A stretch of DNA of 64,000 nucleotides from Novosphingobium sp. Gsoil 351 (GTDB taxonomy: Bacteria; Pseudomonadota; Alphaproteobacteria; Sphingomonadales; Sphingomonadaceae). The stretch is from assembly GCF_009707465.1 (NCBI RefSeq), contig NZ_CP046120.1, forward strand, positions 2,261,501-2,325,500, given 5' to 3'. Below the pieces are notes generated by a model. The model did not search any database. It worked only from the letters and a program-made list of their open reading frames with translations, and had not been told where the DNA came from. Of this stretch, positions 18,178-60,121 are shown in pieces (position 1 is the first letter of the stretch; every line of letters starts with the position of its first letter). The position numbers were made by a program, and so were the translations under genes.

Positions 18178-19687
18178 CTATTCCGCAATCTCCGCGCCGA
18201 CCACCGCGTCGCACGAATCGATGAAGTCGGCGATGACGCCGTTGGTCCAGCCGAACCCGGTCTGCGGCGCGTACTCGCCCCCGCGCCGACTGCGCCGGCC
18301 TCGACATCGTATTTCTCATAGACAAGGCCATGGCGCCGGTAGGTCTGGTCGACGGTTGTCACCCACCGCCGCACGATCTCGCGGGCGAGCGCGCCATGGC
18401 CGTAGCGGCGCAGGCCGGTGACCGCGATCCACTGCAGCGGGGCCCAGCCGTTGGGCCTATCCCACTGCTCGCCGGTTTCGACGAGCGTCGTCCGCAGGCC
18501 CCCCGGGGCGAGGAAATGGCCGCGGACGCATTGCGCGATCGCATCGGCTTGGACTTGCGTGGCGAGTCCGACCAAAGGGGCGCCAACGCGGCGGCGCTGG
18601 GCTGCGGCCGGCGTTGGTCGTGGTGGAGATCGAGATCGGCGAAGAACCCGCGCGATCCGTCCCAGAAATGCCGTTGGATCGCTGCTTGGCGGTCCTGCGC
18701 CCGCCTTGTGTAAGCGGGGGCATCGGTATCGCCGCTTTGCGCGATCGCCGTTTCCAGCCCAAACAGGAATGCGTTGAGATCTACCGGAGCGATCGATGTA
18801 GTCCGGATCGAGGAGAGCGAAGAATCGTCCAGCCAGCGCGAGGAAAAGTCCCAGCCGCTCTCCGCTCCGGCCCGAAGGTCGCGATAGACCTCTCGCGCTG
18901 GCCGGTCGCTTGCGGCGGCCGTCGCGATATCCTCGCGCCAGCTCTCGTCGCGTGGGGTGCCGCTCGGATCCCAGTAGCGGTTGACGAGGCTGCCGTCGGC
19001 CAGGCGCGCCACGTGGTTGCAGCGTTCGCCCGGCCCGATGTCATCGGCCCCTTCCATCCACCAAGCATACTCGCGCTTCATCGCGTCCAAGCGGCGAAGC
19101 GCGACATCGGGGCGACGATCGTCGAGCAGCGCGACCATCATGTGGAACAACGGCGGCTGCGAACGGCCGAGGAAGTAAGTACGCGCGCCATTGGGGACGT
19201 GACCGTGCTCCTCGATGAGATCGGTCATCGCGTCGACGATGCCGTTGGCGAGTTCCGTCTCGCCATCGCGCACGAGACCGAGCATCGTGAAGTAGCTGTC
19301 CCAGTAGTAGATTTCGCGAAACCGCCCGCCCGGCACGACATGACGGTGGCGGACCGGCAGCGCCGAGGAGTAAGTAGCGCCGTCTGCCGGATCGCGCGCA
19401 AGATCGGACCACATGGCGCGGATGTGGTCGCGCAACGACACCGCGGGATCGGCCGATGGGACGGTGGCTCCGGCTGTCGAGGGAGGGAGATTGAAGTTCG
19501 CGGAAACGAACCGCGCCAGCGCCTCGTCGTCGTTCGGCAACTGCCGGAAATCCGCCATGATCGCACCAATCGAACGTTTCGGGACTGCATCGACGAAGGT
19601 TTTGCCGTCGGCCAGGATGTCGCGCTCCTGCACCGCGGCGAGCAGCGGCCCGTAAAGCTCTTGGGGAGTGGCCTGGGTCTTGGTCAC
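18178..19687 (-). pseudogene. trehalase (GH37), coding frame broken by two single-base losses
   Basis: Trehalase hydrolyses trehalose to two glucose. Both family signatures are present: PGGRFREIYYWDSYFTM in the first frame and QWDRPNGWAP in a second frame. The C-terminal segment EYAPQTGFGWTNGV is in a third. The frame changes once near 18573, where a third G is missing after TTT on the coding strand, and once in the run 18278-18282, where five G are present and six would restore frame. Repairing both gives about 503 codons ending at TAG 18178-18180. The start is GTG at 19687, overlapping the upstream hydrolase stop as GTGA. No signal peptide is seen, so it would be a cytoplasmic TreF-like enzyme. 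Real decay and homopolymer sequencing error are both possible; error is favoured. Confidence 0.85.
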
Positions 19688-20644
19688 CCGACGAGTTGCT
19701 TGGCAAAGAAGGCTGCTTGCGCAGCTAGGGGCGTCGTCGGTTTCGGGGCATTCGATCCAAGCCCAAAAGGCGTGCATCATGCCTTCGTACACGCGCAGAT
19801 CGGTCTGCACCCCCGCGCGGCGCAGCGCGAGGTCGGCGAGCACGGTCTGGCTGAGCAGCTGGTCGCGCGTGCTGGTCATCACCAGCATCGGCGGCAGGCC
19901 CGAAAGATCGCCGTAGATCGGCGACAACAGCGGGTTCGTCCGTTCGGTCCCCGCGCTGTAGTCCGCCAGGGTGTCGGGGGCGGAGCGATCTGCCAGGATC
20001 GAAGGCAGGAACGCTTCGCAATCGCCAGCCAGCGCAAGGTCGCCGCTGCCCGAGAAGAACCCGGCCGCTGCGGGCATCGGCAGTCCTTCGGCCCTGATCC
20101 GCGCCAACAACTGCAGCGTCAGCACCGCGCCAGCCGAGGTGCCGTAAATCCCGACCGATCCGGGCGACCGCCGCGCGAGCGCATCTCTGTAAACCGCCAA
20201 GGCATCGTCAACTGCAGCGGGGAACGGGTGCTCGGGGGCCATGCGGTACATGACCGATACCACGGGGATGCCCGTCATCCCGGCGATCGGGATGGTTTCG
20301 GTAAGCGAGCCGGAATCGACCATGAACCCGCCGCCGTGGAAGTTGATCAGCAGGCGCTGTTCTGCCTCGGCATCGAGGCCCCTGCGACGCACCAGCTTCA
20401 CCGCCACGCCGGCGATGCGCGCCTTGGCGACGTCCACCCCGTAACGCTTTGCGCGCCCCTTGTTCAGAGGACGCAAACGGAGCGCCGCGGCCGTACGGAT
20501 GGCCTTGCGGGTCACCGGGTTGCGCATCAGCGAGGCGGTCATTTCGGGCGCCGGGTTTGCCGTCAGCATCGGGGTCATCACCGCTCGCGCTTCCGCGCTG
20601 ACCGTCAGCGCGAAGGGCGGTTGCGGCGGCTTCGCGCCAGTCAT
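19684..20644 (-). CDS. alpha/beta hydrolase (HSL/GDXG esterase family), one-base insertion near its 3' end
   Basis: This esterase-type hydrolase of about 319 residues has the HSL oxyanion motif FHGGGF, the nucleophile elbow GTSAGA, the Asp in TSTRDQLL and the His in MMHAFW. It has no signal peptide. As sequenced, an extra G at 19728-19731 shifts the last codons and reads through into the trehalase gene. Removing one base restores an ending AAFFAKQLVG and a TGA at 19684-19686 that overlaps the trehalase GTG. The ATG at 20644 lies 5 bases after the TBDR stop, so the operon order is TBDR, hydrolase, trehalase. The closest relative in the window is the secreted hydrolase at 27316. It may remove acyl groups from an imported sugar ester. 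Confidence 0.85.
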
Positions 20645-20649
20645 CGGCC

Positions 20650-22992
20650 TCAGCTTCCGAAGCGGTAGCCGACACGCACCCCGTACATCCGCGGCTCGCT
20701 GTAGGTCAGGCCCACCGTGCCGGTGCTTCCGGCGTATTGGTCGAGTACCCCGACCGGCTTCGTCTCGTCGGTCAGGTTGTTGACGAACACGCCGATGTCG
20801 AGCGGGCGGCCGCCGACGTTGCGCCAATCGAGGCTGGCATTGAACAGCCCATAGGCTGGGAGGAAGCGATAGAACGAGGAATTGGTCTGCGCGGTCGACG
20901 ACTTGCTTTGATGGACGTAGTTGATCCCCGCCCGAAGATCCCCCGTCGAACCCAGCGGCAAGTCGTAGCTCGCGCCCAGGGAGAACTTGTGTTTCGGTGT
21001 GTAGGGAAACGGCGAGCCGTTAAGGATCGCGCCGGCGCTGGCATCGGCAACCTTGGTGTACTTCGCGTCGATGTATGAGTAGCTGCCAGTGAGGGTGAGG
21101 CCAGTCACCGGGACGATCGCGGCGTTAACCTCTAAGCCCTGCACTTTGCCTTTGGCAGCGCTGCGCGTGACGTTGAGCTGGGCTGGCCCGGTCGGCAGGT
21201 TGACGGTCTCGACCGTGGTCCTTTGAATGTTATCGTAGATACCACGGTAGGCGGCGACATTGAATCGGCCCGCAAGACCGCCCAGGTCGAACTGCGACTT
21301 CAGCCCGATCTCGACGTCGGACAGTTTCTCTGCCGGGTAGAACCGGAATGGCGACGATGCCGGAACCGGACCGTTGAACCCGCCCGACTTGTATGCGTCG
21401 CGTGCGGTCACATAGACGTGGACGTCGCGCGAGACGTCGTAGTCGAGCGTCGCGGTGTAGCTCAGATAGTCGTCATCGACCGAGCCCGTGGTTGCCGTCG
21501 GAACGCCGATGGCCGTCGACGAGAAACTGTGCTCCCAGGTGTAGCGCAGTCCGCCAGTGACGCTGAAACCTTCAAGGGCCGGCGCGACCCGACCGAGCTC
21601 GAGCGTCGCCTGGGCGAACACCGCCTCGCTACTGTTCTCGGCGTCGAATATCGCCGACAGCGTCGGCACCAACGTTCCCGCCGGGAAGAAGGTGTATTCC
21701 GCGATGCCTGCCGGCAGCTTGGTCTTTTGCCGATCGAGGAACCCGCCGAAAGTGAAGGTCAGCGCCTTGTCGAACGCGGTGCCCTGGAGCTGGAGTTCTT
21801 CGGTAAAGAAGGTCGGTGCCAAGGTCGGTACTCGCCCGCCCTTGAAGAGGCCGGGGTTCGCCGGGTTGACCTGGCTGGTCTGGCTCGAGAGCGGATTGGC
21901 AGTGGCGTCGTAATCGTACCCGTAGATCGTCTTGAGCTCGGAATAGCTGATCACGTTCTTCAGCTTGAGCGCGTCGCTTAGCTCGAAGGTCGCCTGGTTG
22001 ATGATCTGCCAATAGCGCGTGTCGGAAAACTGGTTGAGGTTGTAGGAGACACGGCGCGGCCCGCGCGCGGCCTGATCGGCGACCGCGGTCAGCATGCTCG
22101 GATAGAAGAACGCCACCGGCAGGAAGCCGAGCCCAAACGCGCTCGCGTCGAACCCGGCGGCGGGGTTGAAAGCGCCGAGCACGGTGCCGCCCCCGTTGGT
22201 GTGCGAGTTGTAGTAGCGCCCGACGGTGTAAATCTCGATCCGGTCGGTCGGCCGCACGGTCAGCCCGACGCGGAAGCTCTCGTAAGCGAGGTTGTCGTAG
22301 TCCTTGCCGTTGAAGAACGGCCCGACGTCCTTGGTGTAGCCATCGCGCCGCCCGACTTCCCCAGCGACACGCAGCAGGAGAGTGTCGGGCACGATTGCCA
22401 CGTTGACCGCACCCTCCATGCGGCGGTCATTGTAGTTGCCGTATTCGGCGCGGACGTAGCCGCCGTTGCCGTTCTGCGGCTTCATTGGCTCAAACAGAAT
22501 ATTGCCGCCGGTCGCGTTCTTGCCGAACAGCGTGCCCTGCGGGCCGGCCAGCACCTGCACGTTGGCGAGGTCGTAATAAGTGCCGACCCGACCGTCGACG
22601 TTCACCGAATTGGGCACTTCGGCGAAGTAGTTGACGACGCCCGGGGTAGAGCCGAACGCGGGCCCTTGGCCGCGAAGCGCGAAGAACGCGAACTCACGCG
22701 GATAGCCGCCGTTGATCGTGAACAGCGAAGGCGTGTTGTCGGCGAGCGACGTGCGGTCAGTGATCGCCTTGGCCTGTAGCGTCTCGGCCGTATACGCGGT
22801 GACCGCGATCGGCACATCCTGCAGGTTCTCCTCGCGGCGGCGCGCGGTGACGACGATGTCGCCCAATGCGCTCAATTCGTCATCTGCGCCTGAAACGGAA
22901 TCCGTGGGCGCGGTCTGAGCCAGCGCCATACCGGGCAGAGCGCTGCCGCCGAGCGCAAGGACGACGAGAAGTGTGGAGCGCTTCGAGTTCAC
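20650..22992 (-). CDS. TonB-dependent receptor of the esterase/trehalase locus
   Basis: This outer-membrane receptor has about 780 residues. A signal peptide (NSKRSTLLVVLALGGSALPG, cleavage near MALAQ) precedes the TonB-box-like region and the plug (DIVVTARRREENLQDVPIAV), the VLAGPQGTLFGKNATGGNI motif and a barrel ending GVRVGYRFGS. An ATG exists at 23013, but the GTG at 22992 has GGGAGG at the right distance and starts the signal peptide directly, so GTG is chosen. It is the first gene of an operon with a hydrolase and trehalase. Its promoter region carries the operator-like sites at 23044-23061 and 23111-23128. It should import the locus substrate, probably a sugar ester or glycolipid. Confidence 0.92.
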   Translation of the reverse strand: MNSKRSTLLVVLALGGSALPGMALAQTAPTDSVSGADDELSALGDIVVTARRREENLQDVPIAVTAYTAETLQAKAITDRTSLADNTPSLFTINGGYPREFAFFALRGQGPAFGSTPGVVNYFAEVPNSVNVDGRVGTYYDLANVQVLAGPQGTLFGKNATGGNILFEPMKPQNGNGGYVRAEYGNYNDRRMEGAVNVAIVPDTLLLRVAGEVGRRDGYTKDVGPFFNGKDYDNLAYESFRVGLTVRPTDRIEIYTVGRYYNSHTNGGGTVLGAFNPAAGFDASAFGLGFLPVAFFYPSMLTAVADQAARGPRRVSYNLNQFSDTRYWQIINQATFELSDALKLKNVISYSELKTIYGYDYDATANPLSSQTSQVNPANPGLFKGGRVPTLAPTFFTEELQLQGTAFDKALTFTFGGFLDRQKTKLPAGIAEYTFFPAGTLVPTLSAIFDAENSSEAVFAQATLELGRVAPALEGFSVTGGLRYTWEHSFSSTAIGVPTATTGSVDDDYLSYTATLDYDVSRDVHVYVTARDAYKSGGFNGPVPASSPFRFYPAEKLSDVEIGLKSQFDLGGLAGRFNVAAYRGIYDNIQRTTVETVNLPTGPAQLNVTRSAAKGKVQGLEVNAAIVPVTGLTLTGSYSYIDAKYTKVADASAGAILNGSPFPYTPKHKFSLGASYDLPLGSTGDLRAGINYVHQSKSSTAQTNSSFYRFLPAYGLFNASLDWRNVGGRPLDIGVFVNNLTDETKPVGVLDQYAGSTGTVGLTYSEPRMYGVRVGYRFGS

Positions 22993-23043
22993 TAATCCCT
23001 CCCAAGGGTGCATGCTGTGCGATTGACCGCCTAATCACACATG

Positions 23044-23061
23044 ATTGGTATCGATGTCAAT
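23044..23061. promoter_or_regulatory. LacI-type operator candidate 1
   Basis: The sequence ATTGGTATCGATGTCAAT is an imperfect 18-bp palindrome (7 of 9 pairs) centred on CG. It matches the site at 26046-26063, read on the other strand, at 14 of 18 positions. It lies between the divergent TBDR and hydrolase genes. A LacI-family gene is 1 kb away, and that family typically binds palindromes with a central CG. Confidence 0.6.
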
Positions 23062-23110
23062 AGCCCTTGTGATGCGAGGCATTCCGTGTATCCTTTGGCG
23101 GCAAGGCAGG

Positions 23111-23128
23111 TCTGCTATCGATAGCAGA
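23111..23128. promoter_or_regulatory. perfect 18-bp palindrome before the plus-strand hydrolase
   Basis: TCTGCTATCGATAGCAGA is a perfect inverted repeat with a central CG. Its core TATCGAT is shared with operator candidate 1, 50 bases away. It abuts the hydrolase gene, and its last base is the A of an ATG at 23128. This makes the ATG at 23140, which has GGGAG five bases upstream, the more believable start. A second operator or a different regulator site is likely. Confidence 0.6.
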
Positions 23129-23139
23129 TGGGAGCGAGG

Positions 23140-24069
23140 ATGATCGATCCGCGACAATTCGCTGACTGGGTTAGCGGCGAGGCGAAAGCCATGTTCGTCG
23201 CTGACGCCTTACTCGCCTCCGCGCCCGCGGAGCTCGCGGATCTGCGGCTGCACTACGGGGCCTACAATCGCCGGATGCTCGACGATGCCGTGAAGGCGTT
23301 CGCGGTCGAAATCGCTGAGCGCGAGATTGCCGGTGTCGTGGCCCACGTCGTGACACCGGCTGGCGGAGCGACCGACGAACGCGTCCTGATCTGCCTGCAC
23401 GGCGGGGCCTTCATGTGGGGCTCTGGCGCAGGCGCGCTGCTCGAGGCGGTGCCCGTGGCGGCAATCACCGGTATGGAGGTGATTGCGGTCGACTATCGCC
23501 TGGCGCCCGAACATCCCTATCCGGCGGCGGTCGACGATGTGCTGGCGGTGCATGCCGATCTCCTGAGCCGGTTCGAGCCATCTGCTATCGGCCTCTACGG
23601 TTGCTCGGCGGGTGCCATGCTGACTGCGCAGACGGTCGCGCGGATGGTAGTCGAGGGCCGACCGACGCCTGGCGCGATCGCGATGCTGCATGGGGCTGGG
23701 CTGGACTTCGCTGGCGATTCGGCCGCGACCTCGTCCGCCTTCGCGCTGCGCGCCAACCCCGGCCCCGCACCGTCGGCCGCCCAGCTGCCCTATTTCGCCG
23801 GCGCCGACATGGACCATCCGCTGGTGCTTCCCGGCAACCACCCGGGAATCCTCGCAAGGTTCCCGCCCAGCCTGCTTGTCTCGGGCACGCGCGACTTCGC
23901 CGCCAGCGCATGCTCGGTGATGCACCGCCGACTGCTATCTGCGGGGGCGGAAGCCGGCTTCGTCCTCTTCGACGGGATCTGGCACGCGCACCATATGGCG
24001 GTCGGTCTGCCCGAATCGCGGGAGACCTTCGCGCTCCTCGACCGCTTCTTTAAAAAGCACCTGCGGTGA
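23140..24069 (+). CDS. alpha/beta hydrolase (HSL esterase family)
   Basis: This cytoplasmic hydrolase of about 309 residues has the HSL oxyanion motif LHGGAF, nucleophile elbow GCSAGA, Asp in SGTRDFAAS and His in WHAHHM, plus the conserved YRLAPEHPYPAA segment. The start at 23140 (MIDPRQF) is chosen over 23128 because GGGAG precedes it and the earlier ATG is embedded in a palindrome. It is divergent from the TBDR operon and convergent with the LacI gene. It is one of four hydrolases in this locus, which suggests stepwise removal of several ester groups or several chain lengths. No closer substrate assignment is possible. Confidence 0.88.
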   Translation: MIDPRQFADWVSGEAKAMFVADALLASAPAELADLRLHYGAYNRRMLDDAVKAFAVEIAEREIAGVVAHVVTPAGGATDERVLICLHGGAFMWGSGAGALLEAVPVAAITGMEVIAVDYRLAPEHPYPAAVDDVLAVHADLLSRFEPSAIGLYGCSAGAMLTAQTVARMVVEGRPTPGAIAMLHGAGLDFAGDSAATSSAFALRANPGPAPSAAQLPYFAGADMDHPLVLPGNHPGILARFPPSLLVSGTRDFAASACSVMHRRLLSAGAEAGFVLFDGIWHAHHMAVGLPESRETFALLDRFFKKHLR

Positions 24070-24089
24070 CTAGGCACCGGAATTGTCCG

Positions 24090-25094
24090 TCAGCCGCTGC
24101 TCTCGCGAACGACCAGCTCGACCGGGAGCTGCTCCGAGCTTCCGTCAGCGGTGCCTTCGACGAGCCCGACGATGGCCCGTCCGAGCGCGCGGCCGGCGGC
24201 GGCGCCATCCTGACGGATCGAACTGAGCGGGGGCCGATGGGCCGAAGCGATGGGCGCGTCGTCGAAACCGACTACCGCGACGTCGCGGGGCACGGTGAAG
24301 CCACGCGTCGCGAGCTCGTCGGAGGCGCCCGCGGCGATGAAATCACTTGCGGCGAAGATTGCGTCGAACGCGGTGCCGCCCGCGATCGCCGCGCCCACCG
24401 CCCTCGCGCCCGCTTCGGCGGTGAACGCGCAAGGCAACACGCCGGCGAGCATCGCCGCGCTCGAGGCCAGGACCTCGCGGCACCCCGCCAGCCGTGCGGC
24501 GACTTCCGGGTGCTGGTTGTCGCCCAGGAACAGCATCCGGCTGCGTCCCTTGGCCACCAGATGCTCGGCAGCGAGCCTGCCACCGGCGTGATTTGCACTG
24601 CCTACGACCGGGATTTTGACTCCACTGACCGGCTCTCCCCAGGCGACCATCGGCAGTCCGAACGCCTCGATCTGCGCCAGCCGGTGGCCGCCCTCGCCCT
24701 CGCCGAGCATGACCACCCCGTCGGCGCCCATCGCGCTTGCGGCGAGGAAGTGCTCGTTGGTGGTCAGCAGCATCGCGTAGTCGGCCGGCGTCAGAGCCTC
24801 GAGCAGGCCGCCGATCATCGCGAGCAACAGCGGGTCTGCGATCGGTCGATCACCGCGGTCGAGCTGCTCGATCACAACCGCGATCGTGCGCGAACGGCGC
24901 GTCCGCAAACTGCGTGCAGCGACGTTGACGCGATAGCCGATCTGCTTGGCCACCCGGGTGACGCGCTCGCGCACCTCGGGGCGAACCAGCTCGCTCCCGC
25001 GCAAAGCTCGCGAAACGGTGATCTTGGACACGCCGGCCAGTTCGGCGACCCGCTCCATCGTTGGGCGTTCCGCAGGATCGCCGGGCTTGTTCAT
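24090..25094 (-). CDS. LacI-family transcriptional regulator
   Basis: This 334-residue regulator has an N-terminal LacI helix-turn-helix (MERVAELAGVSKITVSRAL, residues about 13-31), a hinge helix (VNVAARSLRT), and a periplasmic-binding-protein-like effector domain ending in the usual core (VAVVGFDDAPIASAHRPPLSSI). Such proteins usually repress sugar catabolic operons until a sugar or sugar phosphate is bound. It follows the 25122 hydrolase gene in the same direction after 27 bases. The operator-like sites at 23044 and 26046 in both divergent promoters of the locus are its likely targets. This supports a saccharide-related inducer for the cluster. Confidence 0.93.
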   Translation of the reverse strand: MNKPGDPAERPTMERVAELAGVSKITVSRALRGSELVRPEVRERVTRVAKQIGYRVNVAARSLRTRRSRTIAVVIEQLDRGDRPIADPLLLAMIGGLLEALTPADYAMLLTTNEHFLAASAMGADGVVMLGEGEGGHRLAQIEAFGLPMVAWGEPVSGVKIPVVGSANHAGGRLAAEHLVAKGRSRMLFLGDNQHPEVAARLAGCREVLASSAAMLAGVLPCAFTAEAGARAVGAAIAGGTAFDAIFAASDFIAAGASDELATRGFTVPRDVAVVGFDDAPIASAHRPPLSSIRQDGAAAGRALGRAIVGLVEGTADGSSEQLPVELVVRESSG

Positions 25095-25121
25095 CGTGCT
25101 ACTCGCATCGGGAAAGAGCCT

Positions 25122-26027
25122 TCAGGGATTGGCGAAGTAGCGGCCGACCAGGCGCGCGACCAGATCGAACGACCGGCCCACCGCGGGAATGCCGATCGGA
25201 AGAAACAGGAAGCCGTGCGGCAGGCCGGGGAGGCGCATGGCCAGCGTCTCGACACCCGCCGCGACAAGCGCCCGCGCGTAGCACTCGCCGTCGTCGCGCA
25301 GCGGGTCCTCGGACGCGGTCAGCACGATCGCCGGGGCGAGGCCGCGGTGGTCGGTTGCGCGGAGGGGCGAGACCAGGGGATCGCCGATGTCGCCGCCGCC
25401 GAGGTACAGGTCGCGGCAAGCTTCGAGATAGTCGCGAGTCAGCCCGGGGGCCGCCACATCGTCGATCGACGGCAGGGTGAAACCCATGTCGGTTACCGGA
25501 TGGACCAGCAGCTGGAACAACGGCTGCGGCTTGTCCGCATCGCGCAGCCGCAAGGCGATCGCGGCGGTCAGGTTCGCGCCGGCGCTTTCGCCGCCCAGCG
25601 CGATGCGCGCCGAGTCGCAGTCCAGCGCCTCCGCCTCGCGTCGCGCCCAGGTGAACGCCGCGGCGGCATCTTCGAGCCCGGCGGGAAATGGATGCTCGGG
25701 CGCCAGGCGATAGCCGACGGCGAGCACCGCGCACCCGGCACGCGCTGCAATGTGGCGGTGCATTGCATCGTGGGTATCGAGGTCTCCGAGCATCCAGCCG
25801 CCGCCGTGGAGGAACACCAGCAGCGGCAACCGGGCCTCGGTCGTCGGCCGATAGAGCCGCACCGGCACGCCGTCGGCGTCGAAATCGCGGACCTCGGCGA
25901 GCTGGGTGCCCTGCAACCCCGCCGCGGCAGCCGTCATGCCCGCCCGGATCATCGGAACGATATCGGCCGTCAGCGCTGGCATCGGTGGCGGTACGCCCAG
26001 CGCTGCAGCAATGTCGCTATCAAGCAT
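25122..26027 (-). CDS. alpha/beta hydrolase (HSL esterase family)
   Basis: This hydrolase of about 301 residues has oxyanion motif FLHGGGW, nucleophile elbow GGESAGA, Asp in TASEDPLRDDG and His in LPHGF. It is a standard HSL/lipase-esterase with the GDSAG-type elbow, and more distant from the other three here. It has no signal peptide. The frame is open to a TTG at 26078, but the ATG at 26027 (MLDSDIAA) has a strong GGAGGAG site and a family-like N-terminus. It is the first gene of a two-gene operon with the LacI regulator, and divergent from the MFS gene across an operator-like site. Confidence 0.88.
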   Translation of the reverse strand: MLDSDIAAALGVPPPMPALTADIVPMIRAGMTAAAAGLQGTQLAEVRDFDADGVPVRLYRPTTEARLPLLVFLHGGGWMLGDLDTHDAMHRHIAARAGCAVLAVGYRLAPEHPFPAGLEDAAAAFTWARREAEALDCDSARIALGGESAGANLTAAIALRLRDADKPQPLFQLLVHPVTDMGFTLPSIDDVAAPGLTRDYLEACRDLYLGGGDIGDPLVSPLRATDHRGLAPAIVLTASEDPLRDDGECYARALVAAGVETLAMRLPGLPHGFLFLPIGIPAVGRSFDLVARLVGRYFANP

Positions 26028-26045
26028 GGCTCTCGTTTCTCCTCC

Positions 26046-26063
26046 GATGACATCGTTATCAAT
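26046..26063. promoter_or_regulatory. LacI-type operator candidate 2
   Basis: GATGACATCGTTATCAAT, read on the minus strand as ATTGATAACGATGTCATC, agrees with the site at 23044-23061 at 14 of 18 positions, including the CGATGTCA half. It lies in the 56-base divergent region between the hydrolase-LacI operon and the MFS-hydrolase operon. It is therefore placed to regulate both, including the LacI gene itself. Confidence 0.6.
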
Positions 26064-26083
26064 CAGAAGAAAAGGCAATACAA

Positions 26084-27319
26084 GTGGGCCAGCGAGAAAT
26101 GACGATGAGCGACCCAGCCGCCGCTGAAGCCCCGGTTGGCTTTGCCGACGACGGAACGTCGCGTCGACTTTTTCTGGGCGTTTCCGGGCTCTATCTCGCG
26201 CTTTACCTGCACTACGGTTTCTTCGCCTTCATTCCGTTGTGGCTGAAGCATACCGGTGCCGCGCCGGGCGAGATCGGGGTGTTGCTGGCGATCCCGCTCG
26301 TGCTCCGCCTGCTGACTGTCGCGCCGTTTTCGGCCTGGGCCGGGCGCCGCGGGCGGGTGCGCGATTCGATCATGGTCACGGCGATCGTGTCGGCCGCGAT
26401 CATAACGCTGCTGCTCGGTCAGCCGGGCTATGCGGGCCGGGTCGCAGTGGTCCTGGCCTTCTCGATCATGTGGGACCAGCTGCCGGTGCTGACGGATGCC
26501 TATGCGGTGATGGCGGTGCGCGCCAAGGCGCTGGATTTCGGACGGATGCGCGTGTGGGGCTCGATCGCGGTGGTGATCTCCACCGCGTCGGCGGGGTGGG
26601 TTTTCGGGTTGACCGGAATCGAGGCGCTGCCGCTACTCGTCGCCGTGCTGCTGCTCCTGCCCGCAGCAGTCGCGCCATTGCTGCCGCCCGACCGGCAGAT
26701 GGCGACGGTCGAGCCCGGCACCACGGGCAACTGGCGCGACGTGGTCGCCGACCGCAAGCTGATGCGGGCGATGGTCGCGGCCGCGATGATCATGGGCAGC
26801 CACGGCGTGCTGAGCAGCTTCGGTGCGATCCAGTGGAGCGAGCGGGGCATCTCGACGGGGATGATCGGCCTGCTCCAAGCGCTGGCGGTCAGCGCCGAGA
26901 TCGTCGCGTTCTGGTTCGGGTCGAAAGCGCTTGGGCGCAGAGATCCGAGCCTGCTGATCTGCATCGCGGCTGGCGCGGCGACGTTGCGCTGGATCGTGAT
27001 GGCGAACAATCCCGGCCTCGGGGTGCTGGTCGCCGCGCAACTGCTCCACAGCATCACCTCGACCGGCGCGATCCTCGGCACGATGCTCGTCATCGCCCGG
27101 CGGGTGCCGGTGCAGACGAGCGCCGCGGCGCAAGGACTCTACGCGGTGCTGCTCGGTCTCGGGCTCGCGGTAACCACTGCGGGATCGGGGCTGCTGTGGT
27201 CGTGGGGGATATCGGTCGCCTACCTGGCCATGGCCGCGCTGGCGGCGCTGGCGATCCCGCTGGCGTGGCCGACAAAGACGCCGGCGGCCGTCTTGTCGCC
27301 TTCAGGAGCGGAAGCATGA
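26084..27319 (+). CDS. MFS transporter (HcaT/nucleoside-proton-symporter-like, MFS_1_like)
   Basis: This inner-membrane transporter has about 411 residues and twelve predicted helices. The opening (GLYLALYLHYGFFAFIPLWL) resembles the MFS_1_like group, which includes HcaT, LacY-like sugar:H+ symporters and NupG. A charged loop (AWAGRRGRVRDS) follows helix 2. The start is uncertain: GTG 26084 has AAAGG 10 bases upstream, while ATG codons at 26099 and 26105 are alternatives. The stop overlaps the next hydrolase start as ATGA. It would import the sugar or the acid freed in the periplasm by the secreted hydrolase encoded with it. Direction and substrate are inferred only from context. Confidence 0.85.
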   Translation: MGQREMTMSDPAAAEAPVGFADDGTSRRLFLGVSGLYLALYLHYGFFAFIPLWLKHTGAAPGEIGVLLAIPLVLRLLTVAPFSAWAGRRGRVRDSIMVTAIVSAAIITLLLGQPGYAGRVAVVLAFSIMWDQLPVLTDAYAVMAVRAKALDFGRMRVWGSIAVVISTASAGWVFGLTGIEALPLLVAVLLLLPAAVAPLLPPDRQMATVEPGTTGNWRDVVADRKLMRAMVAAAMIMGSHGVLSSFGAIQWSERGISTGMIGLLQALAVSAEIVAFWFGSKALGRRDPSLLICIAAGAATLRWIVMANNPGLGVLVAAQLLHSITSTGAILGTMLVIARRVPVQTSAAAQGLYAVLLGLGLAVTTAGSGLLWSWGISVAYLAMAALAALAIPLAWPTKTPAAVLSPSGAEA

Positions 27320-28332
27320 ACAAACAGACCTACGGCCTGGCATTCCTAGTGGCTGCGGTCCTGGCTGCCCCTGCCTTGGCGCAGACGGCGCGGGCTGCAC
27401 CACCCGACATGATGGCTTGGACCGTGCCCGAGACCGTCAGTCCCGAAGGACGGGCGGCGGTCGCGGCATTGGCCAGCGCGCCATTGCCCAATCCGATGCC
27501 GCCGGTCGCCATCCAGCGGCAGATGATCGGCGCGATGCAGGACGCGATGGGTGCCGAACTCCAAAAGCGCCACGGCGCCCGCGTCGAAGCAGCGACGATC
27601 GCCGGGGTGCCCGTGCGGATCGTGTATCCCAAGGGCATGACCGCGTTGGGCCGCGGGCCGGTGCTGCTCAACCTCCACGGCGGTGGATTCCAGGTCGATT
27701 CGGGTTCGCAGACCGAAACGATCCCGATCGCCGCGCTGACCGGCTTGCCGGTGGTCTCGGTGCTCTATCGCCTTGCGCCCGAGCATCCCTATCCCGCCGC
27801 GCTGGAGGATGCGCTGAACGTGTATCAGGCGCTCGAGCATGATCGCGCGCCCTCGCGGATCGCGGTCTACGGCACCTCGGCCGGCGCCGTCCTCGGTGCC
27901 GAGCTGATCGCAAAGCTGGCCAGCCTCAAGCGGCCGATGCCTGCGGCGCTGGGCTTCTTCTCGGGCAGCGCGGACATGAGCGTCAGCGGGGATTCGGAAT
28001 CCTGGATGCCGCTGCCAACCGGCGAGAAGACGCTAGCCGCTGCGATTGGCGCCTATATCGGTACGACTCCCGTTAAGGACCCGATCCTCTCCCCCATTCA
28101 CGGCGACCTCGCAGGCTTCCCGCCGACCCTGCTGGTCAGCAGCACCCGCGATTCCTTGCTAAGCGGGACGTCGATCTTCGGTCGTGCCTTGCTCGAGCAG
28201 GGCGTCGATGCGCGCCTCGTCGTGCTCGACGGGCTGCCGCACGCCTTCTGGGCCTACATGGACGTTCCGGAGACCGCCCAGGCGAATGCGTTGATGGCGA
28301 AGTTCCTGAAACGGCGGCTTCGCGCGCGCTGA
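27316..28332 (+). CDS. secreted alpha/beta hydrolase (HSL esterase family)
   Basis: This hydrolase of 338 residues has a clear signal peptide (MNKQTYGLAFLVAAVLAAPALAQ as far as the cleavage site), so it acts in the periplasm. It shows LHGGGF, GTSAGA, Asp in SSTRDSLL and His in LPHAFW. It shares long stretches with the hydrolase at 19684-20644, including VDSGSxTETIPIA and AxGFFSGSxD. The two appear to be a duplicated pair sent to different compartments. Its ATG overlaps the MFS stop, giving an MFS-hydrolase operon. A plausible job is first-step de-esterification in the periplasm, with import of the product by the MFS protein. Confidence 0.9.
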   Translation: MNKQTYGLAFLVAAVLAAPALAQTARAAPPDMMAWTVPETVSPEGRAAVAALASAPLPNPMPPVAIQRQMIGAMQDAMGAELQKRHGARVEAATIAGVPVRIVYPKGMTALGRGPVLLNLHGGGFQVDSGSQTETIPIAALTGLPVVSVLYRLAPEHPYPAALEDALNVYQALEHDRAPSRIAVYGTSAGAVLGAELIAKLASLKRPMPAALGFFSGSADMSVSGDSESWMPLPTGEKTLAAAIGAYIGTTPVKDPILSPIHGDLAGFPPTLLVSSTRDSLLSGTSIFGRALLEQGVDARLVVLDGLPHAFWAYMDVPETAQANALMAKFLKRRLRAR

Positions 28333-58567: not shown

Positions 58568-60121
58568 CTAGGCGCCGATGCGCTCCAGAAGAAGGTGCTT
58601 CTTCATCTTTCCTGTCGGCAGACGCGGGAGGTCATCGGCAAAAACAATGCGCTTGGGTACTTTGGCGCCTGACAGTTGCCCGCGAAGCCAAGTTCGAAGC
58701 TCTGCGGCAAATTCCGGGGTCGCTTGGCCAGAATTCACCAATTGGACGAAGGCGGTGACTATCTCTCCCATTTCGTCGTCGGGCACTCCGACTACTGCGG
58801 CGTCGGCTACGGTGGGGTGTGTGACCAGGAGATTTTCGATCTCCTGAGGATAGACGTTCACTCCGCCCGTGATGATCAGGAACGAGCTGCGATCGGTCAG
58901 ATAGAGAAAGTCCTCAGAATCGAGATACCCCACGTCGCCGACGGTCGACCAGCCTTTGGCGTGATGAGCTGTTGCCGTACGTTCCGGATCGTTATGGTAG
59001 CTGAACCGCATGCCGCCGTCGGCATAGACAGTTCCGATGGTTCCCGCAGGAACCTCGTCACCAAAATCGTCGCAGATGCGCAGTGCTCCCGTCACGCAAC
59101 GGCCGACCGAACCCGGGCGCTCAAGCCATTGCGGAGTGTCGATCATGGTCAGCACTGATTGCTCGCTGCTGCCAAAGTATTCCGAAACAATCGGGCCCAA
59201 CCATTCGATGATGTTGCGCTTTACCTCGACCGGGCATGGTGCGGCGGCGTGAATGACTAGGTCGAGCGACGAGAGATCAAAGGCATGCCGCTGCTCATCT
59301 GGCAATTTCAACATGCGGACGAAGTGTGTCGGCACGAACTGCGCAACGTTGATCTGGTGCCGCTCTATGAGCTGCAGGGCCTGCACGGGTTCAAATCGTT
59401 CCATGAGTACGAGGGTTCCACCGAGGCGGATGACCGCAATTGCCCAAGCGTACGGCGCTGAGTGGTAAAGCGGCGCGGGGCAGAGATAGACCGTCTCGTC
59501 GCTAAGGCCGAACCTGGACGCGACACTCATGACGGCCTCGGAGACGCCGCCAACCCGCCCGACATCGGTGGCGTGATAGACGATGCCCTTGGGCTTGCCC
59601 GTGGTGCCGGACGAGTACAGCATCTCGCGCCCCGGCGCTTCATTGTCCGGGGGAGTATCCGGCTGGTTCGCGCAAAGGCTTTCCCAGGATTCGAGGCCCT
59701 CGATTTCGCCTCCAACGACGAACGTGCGCGGCAGGCCCGGCAGTGCAAGGAGCTCTTCGAACCTCTGTCTCACCGAGGTCGATACGATCAGCAGTCTCGA
59801 GCCGCTGTCTGCGACGATGAAGGCAACCTCGGTCGCGGTCAGCAGGGTGGATAACGGAACGACGACCAATCCGATCCTGAGGCCTGCCAGAGCGGTCGCC
59901 AAAAACTCGACACTGTTCTCGAGCTGAAAGGCGAACCGGTCGCTACCGACCAATCCGCATTGGCGAAGCGCATGCTCGCGTTTGTTGACGAGGTGTTCCA
60001 GTTCTCCATGGCTAGTTCGAGCACCCGATCCCAGGACGACTGCAGCCTTGTCCGGCGTTTTCGTTCCGAGAAGCGCGTAAGGTCTGTGCTTGTCCCCCGT
60101 CGGTCCTTCTCGCTCCATCAC
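58568..60121 (-). CDS. acyl-CoA synthetase (AMP-dependent ligase)
   Basis: This 517-residue ANL-superfamily enzyme activates a carboxylic acid with ATP and CoA. The P-loop motif is MLYSSGTTGKPKGI. The AMP-binding A5 region is EYFGSSEQS, GDVGYLDSEDFLYLTDR is the hinge, and the C-terminal catalytic Lys is in LPRLPTGKMKKHLL. It resembles fatty-acid or steroid-acid CoA ligases more than acetyl-CoA synthetase. It follows the thiolase gene on the same strand after 64 bases, forming a minus-strand pair divergent from a LysR gene. Confidence 0.93.
   Translation of the reverse strand: MMEREGPTGDKHRPYALLGTKTPDKAAVVLGSGARTSHGELEHLVNKREHALRQCGLVGSDRFAFQLENSVEFLATALAGLRIGLVVVPLSTLLTATEVAFIVADSGSRLLIVSTSVRQRFEELLALPGLPRTFVVGGEIEGLESWESLCANQPDTPPDNEAPGREMLYSSGTTGKPKGIVYHATDVGRVGGVSEAVMSVASRFGLSDETVYLCPAPLYHSAPYAWAIAVIRLGGTLVLMERFEPVQALQLIERHQINVAQFVPTHFVRMLKLPDEQRHAFDLSSLDLVIHAAAPCPVEVKRNIIEWLGPIVSEYFGSSEQSVLTMIDTPQWLERPGSVGRCVTGALRICDDFGDEVPAGTIGTVYADGGMRFSYHNDPERTATAHHAKGWSTVGDVGYLDSEDFLYLTDRSSFLIITGGVNVYPQEIENLLVTHPTVADAAVVGVPDDEMGEIVTAFVQLVNSGQATPEFAAELRTWLRGQLSGAKVPKRIVFADDLPRLPTGKMKKHLLLERIGA

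Follow-up and report, generated by a model that had tools for sequence, protein, structure and literature searches.

A candidate LacI-controlled locus for the use of acylated trehalose in Novosphingobium sp. Gsoil 351 and its relatives

Organization of the locus

We analysed a 64,000-nucleotide stretch of Novosphingobium sp. Gsoil 351 (contig NZ_CP046120.1, positions 2,261,501 to 2,325,500; hereafter the window, whose numbering we use), which is part of a 3.82-Mb single-contig genome. Our subject is a cluster at 18178–28332 of eight genes in four predicted transcription units, which encode a TonB-dependent outer-membrane receptor (TBDR), four HSL-family esterases (HSL1–HSL4), a GH37 trehalase, a LacI-family repressor and an MFS transporter, and which together probably serve the utilization of short- or medium-acyl esters of trehalose. 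A preliminary description, made from the letters alone, had proposed this gene content and its arrangement as two divergent promoter pairs, and Pfam searches confirmed both.

The first pair consists of a TBDR-HSL1-trehalase unit on the minus strand and HSL2 on the plus strand. The TBDR (20650–23013; Pfam TonB_dep_Rec and Plug) opens the minus-strand unit and is followed by HSL1 (19684–20644), a GTSAG-type esterase with no signal peptide whose last ~15 codons are frameshifted near 19.73 kb, and by the trehalase (18178–19687), which has a GTG start, no signal peptide and frameshifts near 18.55 and 18.28 kb. HSL2 (23140–24069) is a GCSAG-type esterase with an Abhydrolase_3 domain and no signal peptide; the earliest in-frame ATG lies at 23128, and a start at 23140 agrees better with its relatives. 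Two putative LacI-type operators occupy the region in between, one at 23044–23061, ~30 bp upstream of the TBDR, and a second, a perfect palindrome, at 23111–23128, before HSL2. In the second pair, an HSL3-LacI unit on the minus strand diverges from an MFS-HSL4 unit on the plus strand. HSL3 (25122–26027; GESAG-type, no signal peptide) precedes the repressor gene (24090–25094; Pfam LacI and Peripla_BP_3), and a third putative operator (26046–26063) lies between HSL3 and the MFS gene (26084–27319). The transporter matches Pfam MFS_1_like and passes the cut-off of the general NCBIfam 'mfs' model; its second-ranked NCBIfam model is a 3-phenylpropionate transporter, with a score under the cut-off. 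HSL4 (27316–28332) is an esterase of the GTSAG type; its N-terminus resembles a signal peptide, and it is predicted to be exported. Stop and start codons overlap between HSL1 and the trehalase GTG (19687–19684) and between the MFS gene and HSL4 (27316–27319), which is compatible with translational coupling.

All four hydrolases match Abhydrolase_3, with E values from 4e-32 to 3e-67. The genome holds 19 such matches in 3.8 Mb, at least one of them a second copy at a contig end, and four fall within these 10 kb; because of this density, and because 12 orthologous loci share the gene set (see below), we regard the grouping as beyond chance. We aligned 17 esterases from the window and its relatives (six HSL1, from relatives only, three HSL2, four HSL3 and four HSL4) and found the catalytic Ser, Asp and His columns invariant, as are the H and GG columns of the HGGG oxyanion motif and the S-A-G columns of the GxSAG nucleophile motif; HSL2 of the window reads HGGA. 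The HSL1 frame of the window, which stands outside this alignment, carries the same triad residues as judged by eye. Of the NCBIfam subfamily models, that for HSL4 is exceeded (457 bits against a cut-off of 380), and those for HSL1 (345 against 380), HSL2 (343 against 410) and HSL3 (265 against 350) are not reached.

Frameshifts in the trehalase and HSL1

The preliminary description had listed a GH37 trehalase. Its presence was borne out by PF01204, which gives 306.5 bits (cut-off 21; E 5e-91) for the first piece alone and has its sole genome-wide match here (E <= 0.001). A single reading frame was not: the profile matches fall in three pieces in three frames (18548–19612, 18279–18557 and 18211–18285), and the deposited sequence holds no one intact trehalase frame. 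Open trehalase genes occur at ten related loci (L004–L007, L009, L010, L012–L014 and L111), and that of L005, on which we checked the signature segments in place of the broken window gene, aligns over its full length with solved periplasmic trehalases (E 7e-147), including the segments PGGRF..YYWDS and QWD.PNGWAP, which we take to be trehalase signatures with catalytic roles. The broken window piece scores below the cut-offs of the NCBIfam TreA/TreF models (407 bits against 941, 394 against 512 and 391 against 560).

Mechanical calling of open reading frames (ORFs) yields one 822-aa ORF at 18359–20827 that spans HSL1 and the trehalase, since the C-terminus of HSL1 is itself frameshifted and thereby comes into frame with the trehalase. 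We rejected a genuine fusion of the two proteins as a frameshift artefact: they are separate genes in all six relatives in which both ORFs are whole (L004–L007, L010 and L012).

The breaks may be sequencing errors or recent decay; the gaps between two copies of the contig end on the one hand and the intact neighbouring genes on the other make both possible. A ~43-kb segment is repeated at the two ends of the contig (~1–43 kb and 3,775–3,818 kb; loci L049–L054) with 97.3% identity and 531 gap openings, and the differences between the copies cluster toward the ends. Such a repeat has the look of a circular overlap left untrimmed in an assembly of long-read type. That the locus is decaying and non-functional in this strain, whatever its ancestral role, is a reading to which we give some weight without favouring it, and it is compatible with each of the functional explanations weighed below. 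Three frameshifts fall inside ~1.5 kb, the remaining six genes, unlike HSL1 and the trehalase, have full-length ORFs, nine genes at 4.2–17.5 kb show no frameshift in single-piece alignments to three same-genus genomes, and the genome offers no second PF01204 match. Against decay, each break resembles a one-base shift, the pieces keep their motifs and have no internal stop codon (by eye), and the end copies of the assembly itself differ by those 531 gaps, 14 of them even within the 20 kb that has the fewest.

Conservation across relatives

A pattern-based scan of species genomes for the TBDR returned 25 loci. It gave 11 TBDR orthologues (L004–L014; 56–72% identity), a lower bound because the scan picks up close relatives only. 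A further 14 matches (L015–L028; 25–35% identity) lie beside no other window gene, several of them on short contigs, and were excluded from the cluster counts. Among 397 sampled genomes of the family we found two TBDR orthologues, that of the window and one in G403 (L111), and among 385 sampled genomes of the class there were three TBDR matches, with the window as the sole true member. The TBDR homologues of G647 and G726 (35–37% identity) are non-members, as no other cluster gene occurs in the 11–20 kb around them. Plasmids hold TBDR homologues in 22 records at E <= 1e-100, all below 60% identity (37–39% in the ten listed); these too were not counted as members. The relatives with G numbers appear to be sphingomonads, as judged from the named ones.

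The 12 orthologous loci outside the window belong to Sphingopyxis, Sphingomonas, Novosphingobium, a Sphingomonadales metagenome-assembled genome (MAG), the same-family genome G403 and a Hyphomonadaceae MAG. The locus was not found in the nine other same-genus genomes among those listed in the family sample; its distribution is rare and patchy.

The conserved-neighbourhood search of sphingomonad genomes suggested in the preliminary description recovered the gene set at these 12 loci. We counted each gene over 13 loci (the window and the 12), only where the contig reaches. The trehalase, whose loss from homologous clusters had been named beforehand as what would refute a role in trehalose ester use, is present at 12 of 12 testable loci (the L011 copy is cut short, and the window copy is frameshifted), so that the proposal withstood this test. 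LacI, HSL3 and HSL2 likewise occur at 12 of 12 each (HSL2 of L012 in two pieces), the MFS gene at 11 of 11, HSL4 at 10 of 11 (missing in L012) and HSL1 at 11 of 13 (L013 and L014 have none, and in L111 it is displaced). More distant LacI homologues (L030–L048) share 39–49% identity, and in two of these 4-kb loci, L034 and L036, an HSL gene adjoins.

The cluster of Novosphingobium MW5 (L012:8939–16082) is irregular in several ways: HSL2 lies in two frames, HSL4 is missing, and a transposase-like ORF, IS110-like by eye, follows the trehalase. This cluster is possibly decaying.

In the trehalase tree, the ten sphingomonad cluster trehalases group in a single clade (support 100/99) that is separate from the exported trehalases, and the Hyphomonadaceae cluster trehalase (L014) falls outside it. 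A single origin of all cluster trehalases was rejected (p-AU 0.0135), with L014 on a long branch and no other Hyphomonadaceae trehalase in the sample. With this long-branch caveat, the topology hints that the Hyphomonadaceae cluster recruited its trehalase independently.

Predicted compartments of trehalases and esterases

We scored N-termini with a simple hydropathy score rather than a trained predictor. By this measure the cluster trehalases of eleven relatives reach at most 1.24, i.e. no signal peptide, and by eye the window trehalase has no hydrophobic start either; the trehalases of all 34 other regions of the family score at least 1.65, i.e. a signal peptide, with L139 doubtful because the start used lies 248 codons upstream. 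The genome of G403 holds both forms, the cluster trehalase without a signal peptide (L111) and a second one with a signal peptide elsewhere (L129). Among the esterases, HSL4 is signal-peptide-like in all ten copies scored (at least 1.94), and HSL1–HSL3 score at most 1.51 in 25 of 28 cases, the exceptions being HSL2 of L013, HSL1 of L111 and HSL3 of L006 (upstream start).

Five of the 34 non-cluster trehalase regions (L118, L119, L124, L128 and L133) carry an HSL esterase within 8 kb, with 1.75 expected (P about 0.03), which is suggestive only of a general preference of esterases for trehalases. In L118, L119, L124 and L128 both enzymes look exported; in L133 the trehalase has a signal-peptide-like start and the HSL start that was scored does not. 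Esterase and trehalase would thus commonly, not invariably, share one compartment. A TBDR is found near the pair in L118, L124 and L128, a sulfatase also occurs in L124, and L119 additionally holds a GH42 gene and the C-terminal part of a gene for an AMP-binding enzyme.

A conserved operator-like palindrome

The intergenic regions of these loci have in common a LacI-type palindrome, ATTGACATCGATANCATT-like and centred on ATCGAT, for which we searched with the pattern TGNYAWCGATRNCA. At least one site occurs in 13 of 13 loci, and one precedes the TBDR at all 12 of the 12 loci where this could be tested. In L004–L007 the MFS-HSL4 set lies ~9–10 kb from the TBDR promoter, and all four units are preceded by a pattern site. 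Three of the four pattern places in the window genome are inside the locus, as are 23 of 43 in eight relatives (all or most in six genomes). The reversed control pattern had no match in the window genome and two across the eight relatives.

The share of places outside clusters shows that the pattern as written is loose. There are 21 such places in nine genomes, 12 of which we read. One of them (L166, Sphingomonas tagetis) puts the palindrome 51 bp ahead of a lone, unlinked AMP-binding acyl-CoA ligase gene. Another (L173, Sphingopyxis MSC1) lies 62 bp ahead of a gene for a GH65 phosphorylase fused to a beta-phosphoglucomutase, with a LacI paralogue 49% identical to the window LacI beside it (L173:3950–8045); the combination of paralogue, operator and GH65 gene suggests that this type of repressor may sense alpha-linked glucose disaccharides. 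As judged by eye, a further place lies 99 bp from the start of an MFS-like gene (L167), and one at the start of a TBDR-like gene that is followed by a carboxylesterase-like gene (L174). The other eight of the 12 places are in or near genes without evident link to the locus.

Acyl-CoA-forming enzymes in the clusters

An enzyme predicted to form acyl-CoA is encoded in 9 of 11 testable clusters, and five kinds occur. Four are AMP-binding, named here after their best NCBIfam models, although all score below the cut-offs of those models: PRK07008-like (L004–L007 and L014), PRK12406-like (L005), PRK12583-like (L009 and L010) and PRK06155-like (L013 and L014). The fifth kind is a CoA-transferase of the acetyl-CoA hydrolase/transferase type, in L111 (Pfam) and L013 (the same gene, by eye from the frame), where a thiolase-like gene follows. 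These different enzyme types argue for repeated recruitment. Gene density predicts an AMP-binding gene at 0.75 of ten loci with counted genomes (L004 left out); we found one at seven, a number reached in 0 of 2 million simulated draws, with the caveat that the loci are related and that the test overstates their independence.

A probable route for acylated trehalose

Taken together, these observations are best explained by a LacI-controlled locus that probably serves the use of short- or medium-acyl trehalose esters. The TBDR would carry the ester across the outer membrane, and exported HSL4 would strip some of the acyl groups in the periplasm. The MFS carrier would then bring in the partly deacylated trehalose, HSL1–HSL3 would complete deacylation in the cytoplasm, and the cytoplasmic trehalase, as its family and the motifs of its relatives suggest, would cleave trehalose to two glucoses. 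The released short- and medium-chain acids would be converted to CoA esters, in most relatives by the cluster-encoded ligases or CoA-transferase. LacI would repress the units through the conserved ATCGAT-centred operator, probably until trehalose or partly acylated trehalose releases it. The short to medium acyl length is a guess from what is known of HSL enzymes and from the CoA-transferase. The preliminary description had already proposed uptake and use of an ester-decorated trehalose, and the shared operator, the acyl-CoA-forming enzymes and the unlinked ligase under the same operator speak for it at the level of sequence; its partly periplasmic deacylation is in keeping with the signal-peptide-like start of HSL4, and its hydrolysis of trehalose inside the cell with a trehalase that has no signal peptide.

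Several points weigh against this explanation. The window trehalase and the end of HSL1 are frameshifted, so that function in this strain hinges on the true frame, and L013 and L014 lack HSL1. The loci share kinship, and their counts are not independent. Matches to the operator pattern also occur outside the clusters, which hold only 2 of the 7 places in S. tagetis and 2 of the 10 in Novosphingobium MW5. The clusters of the window and of MW5 have no acyl-CoA-forming gene, and the AMP-binding gene at 58568 of the window has no operator; the window genome has 27 AMP-binding matches that could supply a ligase. Finally, the effector of LacI and the ligand of the TBDR are not readable from sequence.

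These points leave room for other substrates. The esters might have a different sugar, a polyol or an aglycone at their core, for instance as plant or microbial esters for which trehalose is just one of the possible cores, with the trehalase on a side branch. HSL enzymes are promiscuous, which fits such a scheme, other glycosidases are found nearby (GH1 at the border of L006, together with a type-B carboxylesterase; GH42 adjoining the trehalase of L119), so that other sugars may be involved, and our family searches covered part of the cluster ORFs. We consider it unlikely, because those glycosidases occur at single loci only, the trehalase is never missing where it can be looked for, and the cytoplasmic trehalases of the sphingomonad clusters form a separate lineage. 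Alternatively, trehalose utilization and general scavenging esterases could be two functions under one repressor that share no substrate molecule. The genome of L006, in which the LacI paralogue (49%) of L173 and its similar operator precede the GH65/beta-phosphoglucomutase gene, fits this, as the LacI type may just sense alpha-glucobioses; yet esterases and acyl-CoA-forming enzymes travel together with the trehalase, and the exported esterase and the MFS gene retain the operator even at ~9–10 kb, so that we find this split quite unlikely. Protection against an ester-bearing antibiotic or surfactant, with the trehalase incidental, is very improbable: HSL3 does match a chloramphenicol hydrolase model, far under its cut-off (205 of 500 bits), but the TBDR, an MFS carrier from a family that includes importers, the sugar-type repressor and acyl-CoA activation all suggest feeding.

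The locus may further represent an as yet undescribed, dedicated pathway with which sphingomonads, together with at least one lineage of the Hyphomonadaceae, consume trehalose glycolipids or short-acyl trehaloses that are shed by other microbes, for example rhodococci and other actinobacteria, and catabolize the sugar and acyl halves under one LacI regulon. We put this forward tentatively, as an idea somewhat short of an even chance. Esters of trehalose are familiar as biosurfactants and as lipids of the cell envelope.

Comparison with known systems

The sux locus of Xanthomonas campestris is a TBDR-containing carbohydrate utilization (CUT) locus for sucrose, with a TBDR, an amylosucrase, a transporter and the LacI/GalR-type SuxR (PMC1790865). 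The cluster resembles it in combining a TBDR, an inner-membrane sugar transporter, a sugar enzyme and a LacI/GalR-type repressor and, if the proposed route holds, in importing one disaccharide and processing it inside; it differs in that the substrate of sux is sucrose and that no esterase or acyl enzyme is described in the available part of that source (PMC1790865). Our locus instead has a trehalase, four HSL esterases, one of them predicted to be exported, and acyl-CoA ligases or a CoA-transferase in relatives. It appears CUT-like in that the TBDR adjoins a predicted sugar-degrading enzyme and an inner-membrane transporter, and in that a LacI gene and the conserved operator-like palindrome would provide a regulator with putative sites in the locus.

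With TreA and TreF of E. coli type, which act on free trehalose, the cluster trehalase shares the GH37 family, and the relative in L005 aligns full-length with a solved periplasmic trehalase. Unlike them it sits with esterases under a locus-specific LacI and has no signal peptide. The solved structures closest in sequence to HSL4 are PMGL2, E25, E40 and MGS-MT1, of the same fold family with HGGG and GxSAG motifs; those are known as single, mostly metagenomic esterases, whereas here four paralogues share one putative regulon with a sugar hydrolase.

The preliminary description knew of no pathway with this combination. Among the open-licence PubMed Central papers listed in our literature searches, none had a title or abstract start on the catabolism of trehalose esters by such a bacterial locus. 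The cluster is a compact and testable candidate. Its carriers include Sphingopyxis panaciterrae DSM 27164 as well as Sphingomonas tagetis MG17, and it combines a putative operator with a set of four esterase paralogues. If the explanation is true, the TBDR/LacI principle of sugar loci would extend to sugar esters, with the acyl half in the same regulon.

Neighbouring part of the window

From 31000 to 64000 the GC content of the window is mostly 0.58–0.63, compared with 0.64–0.70 before. Genes in this part encode an HTH_18 regulator (32811), a DNA methylase (36238), a second TBDR (50191), another MFS protein (53011), an AMP-binding ligase (58568) and a thiolase (60186), and the region is perhaps a second catabolic island.

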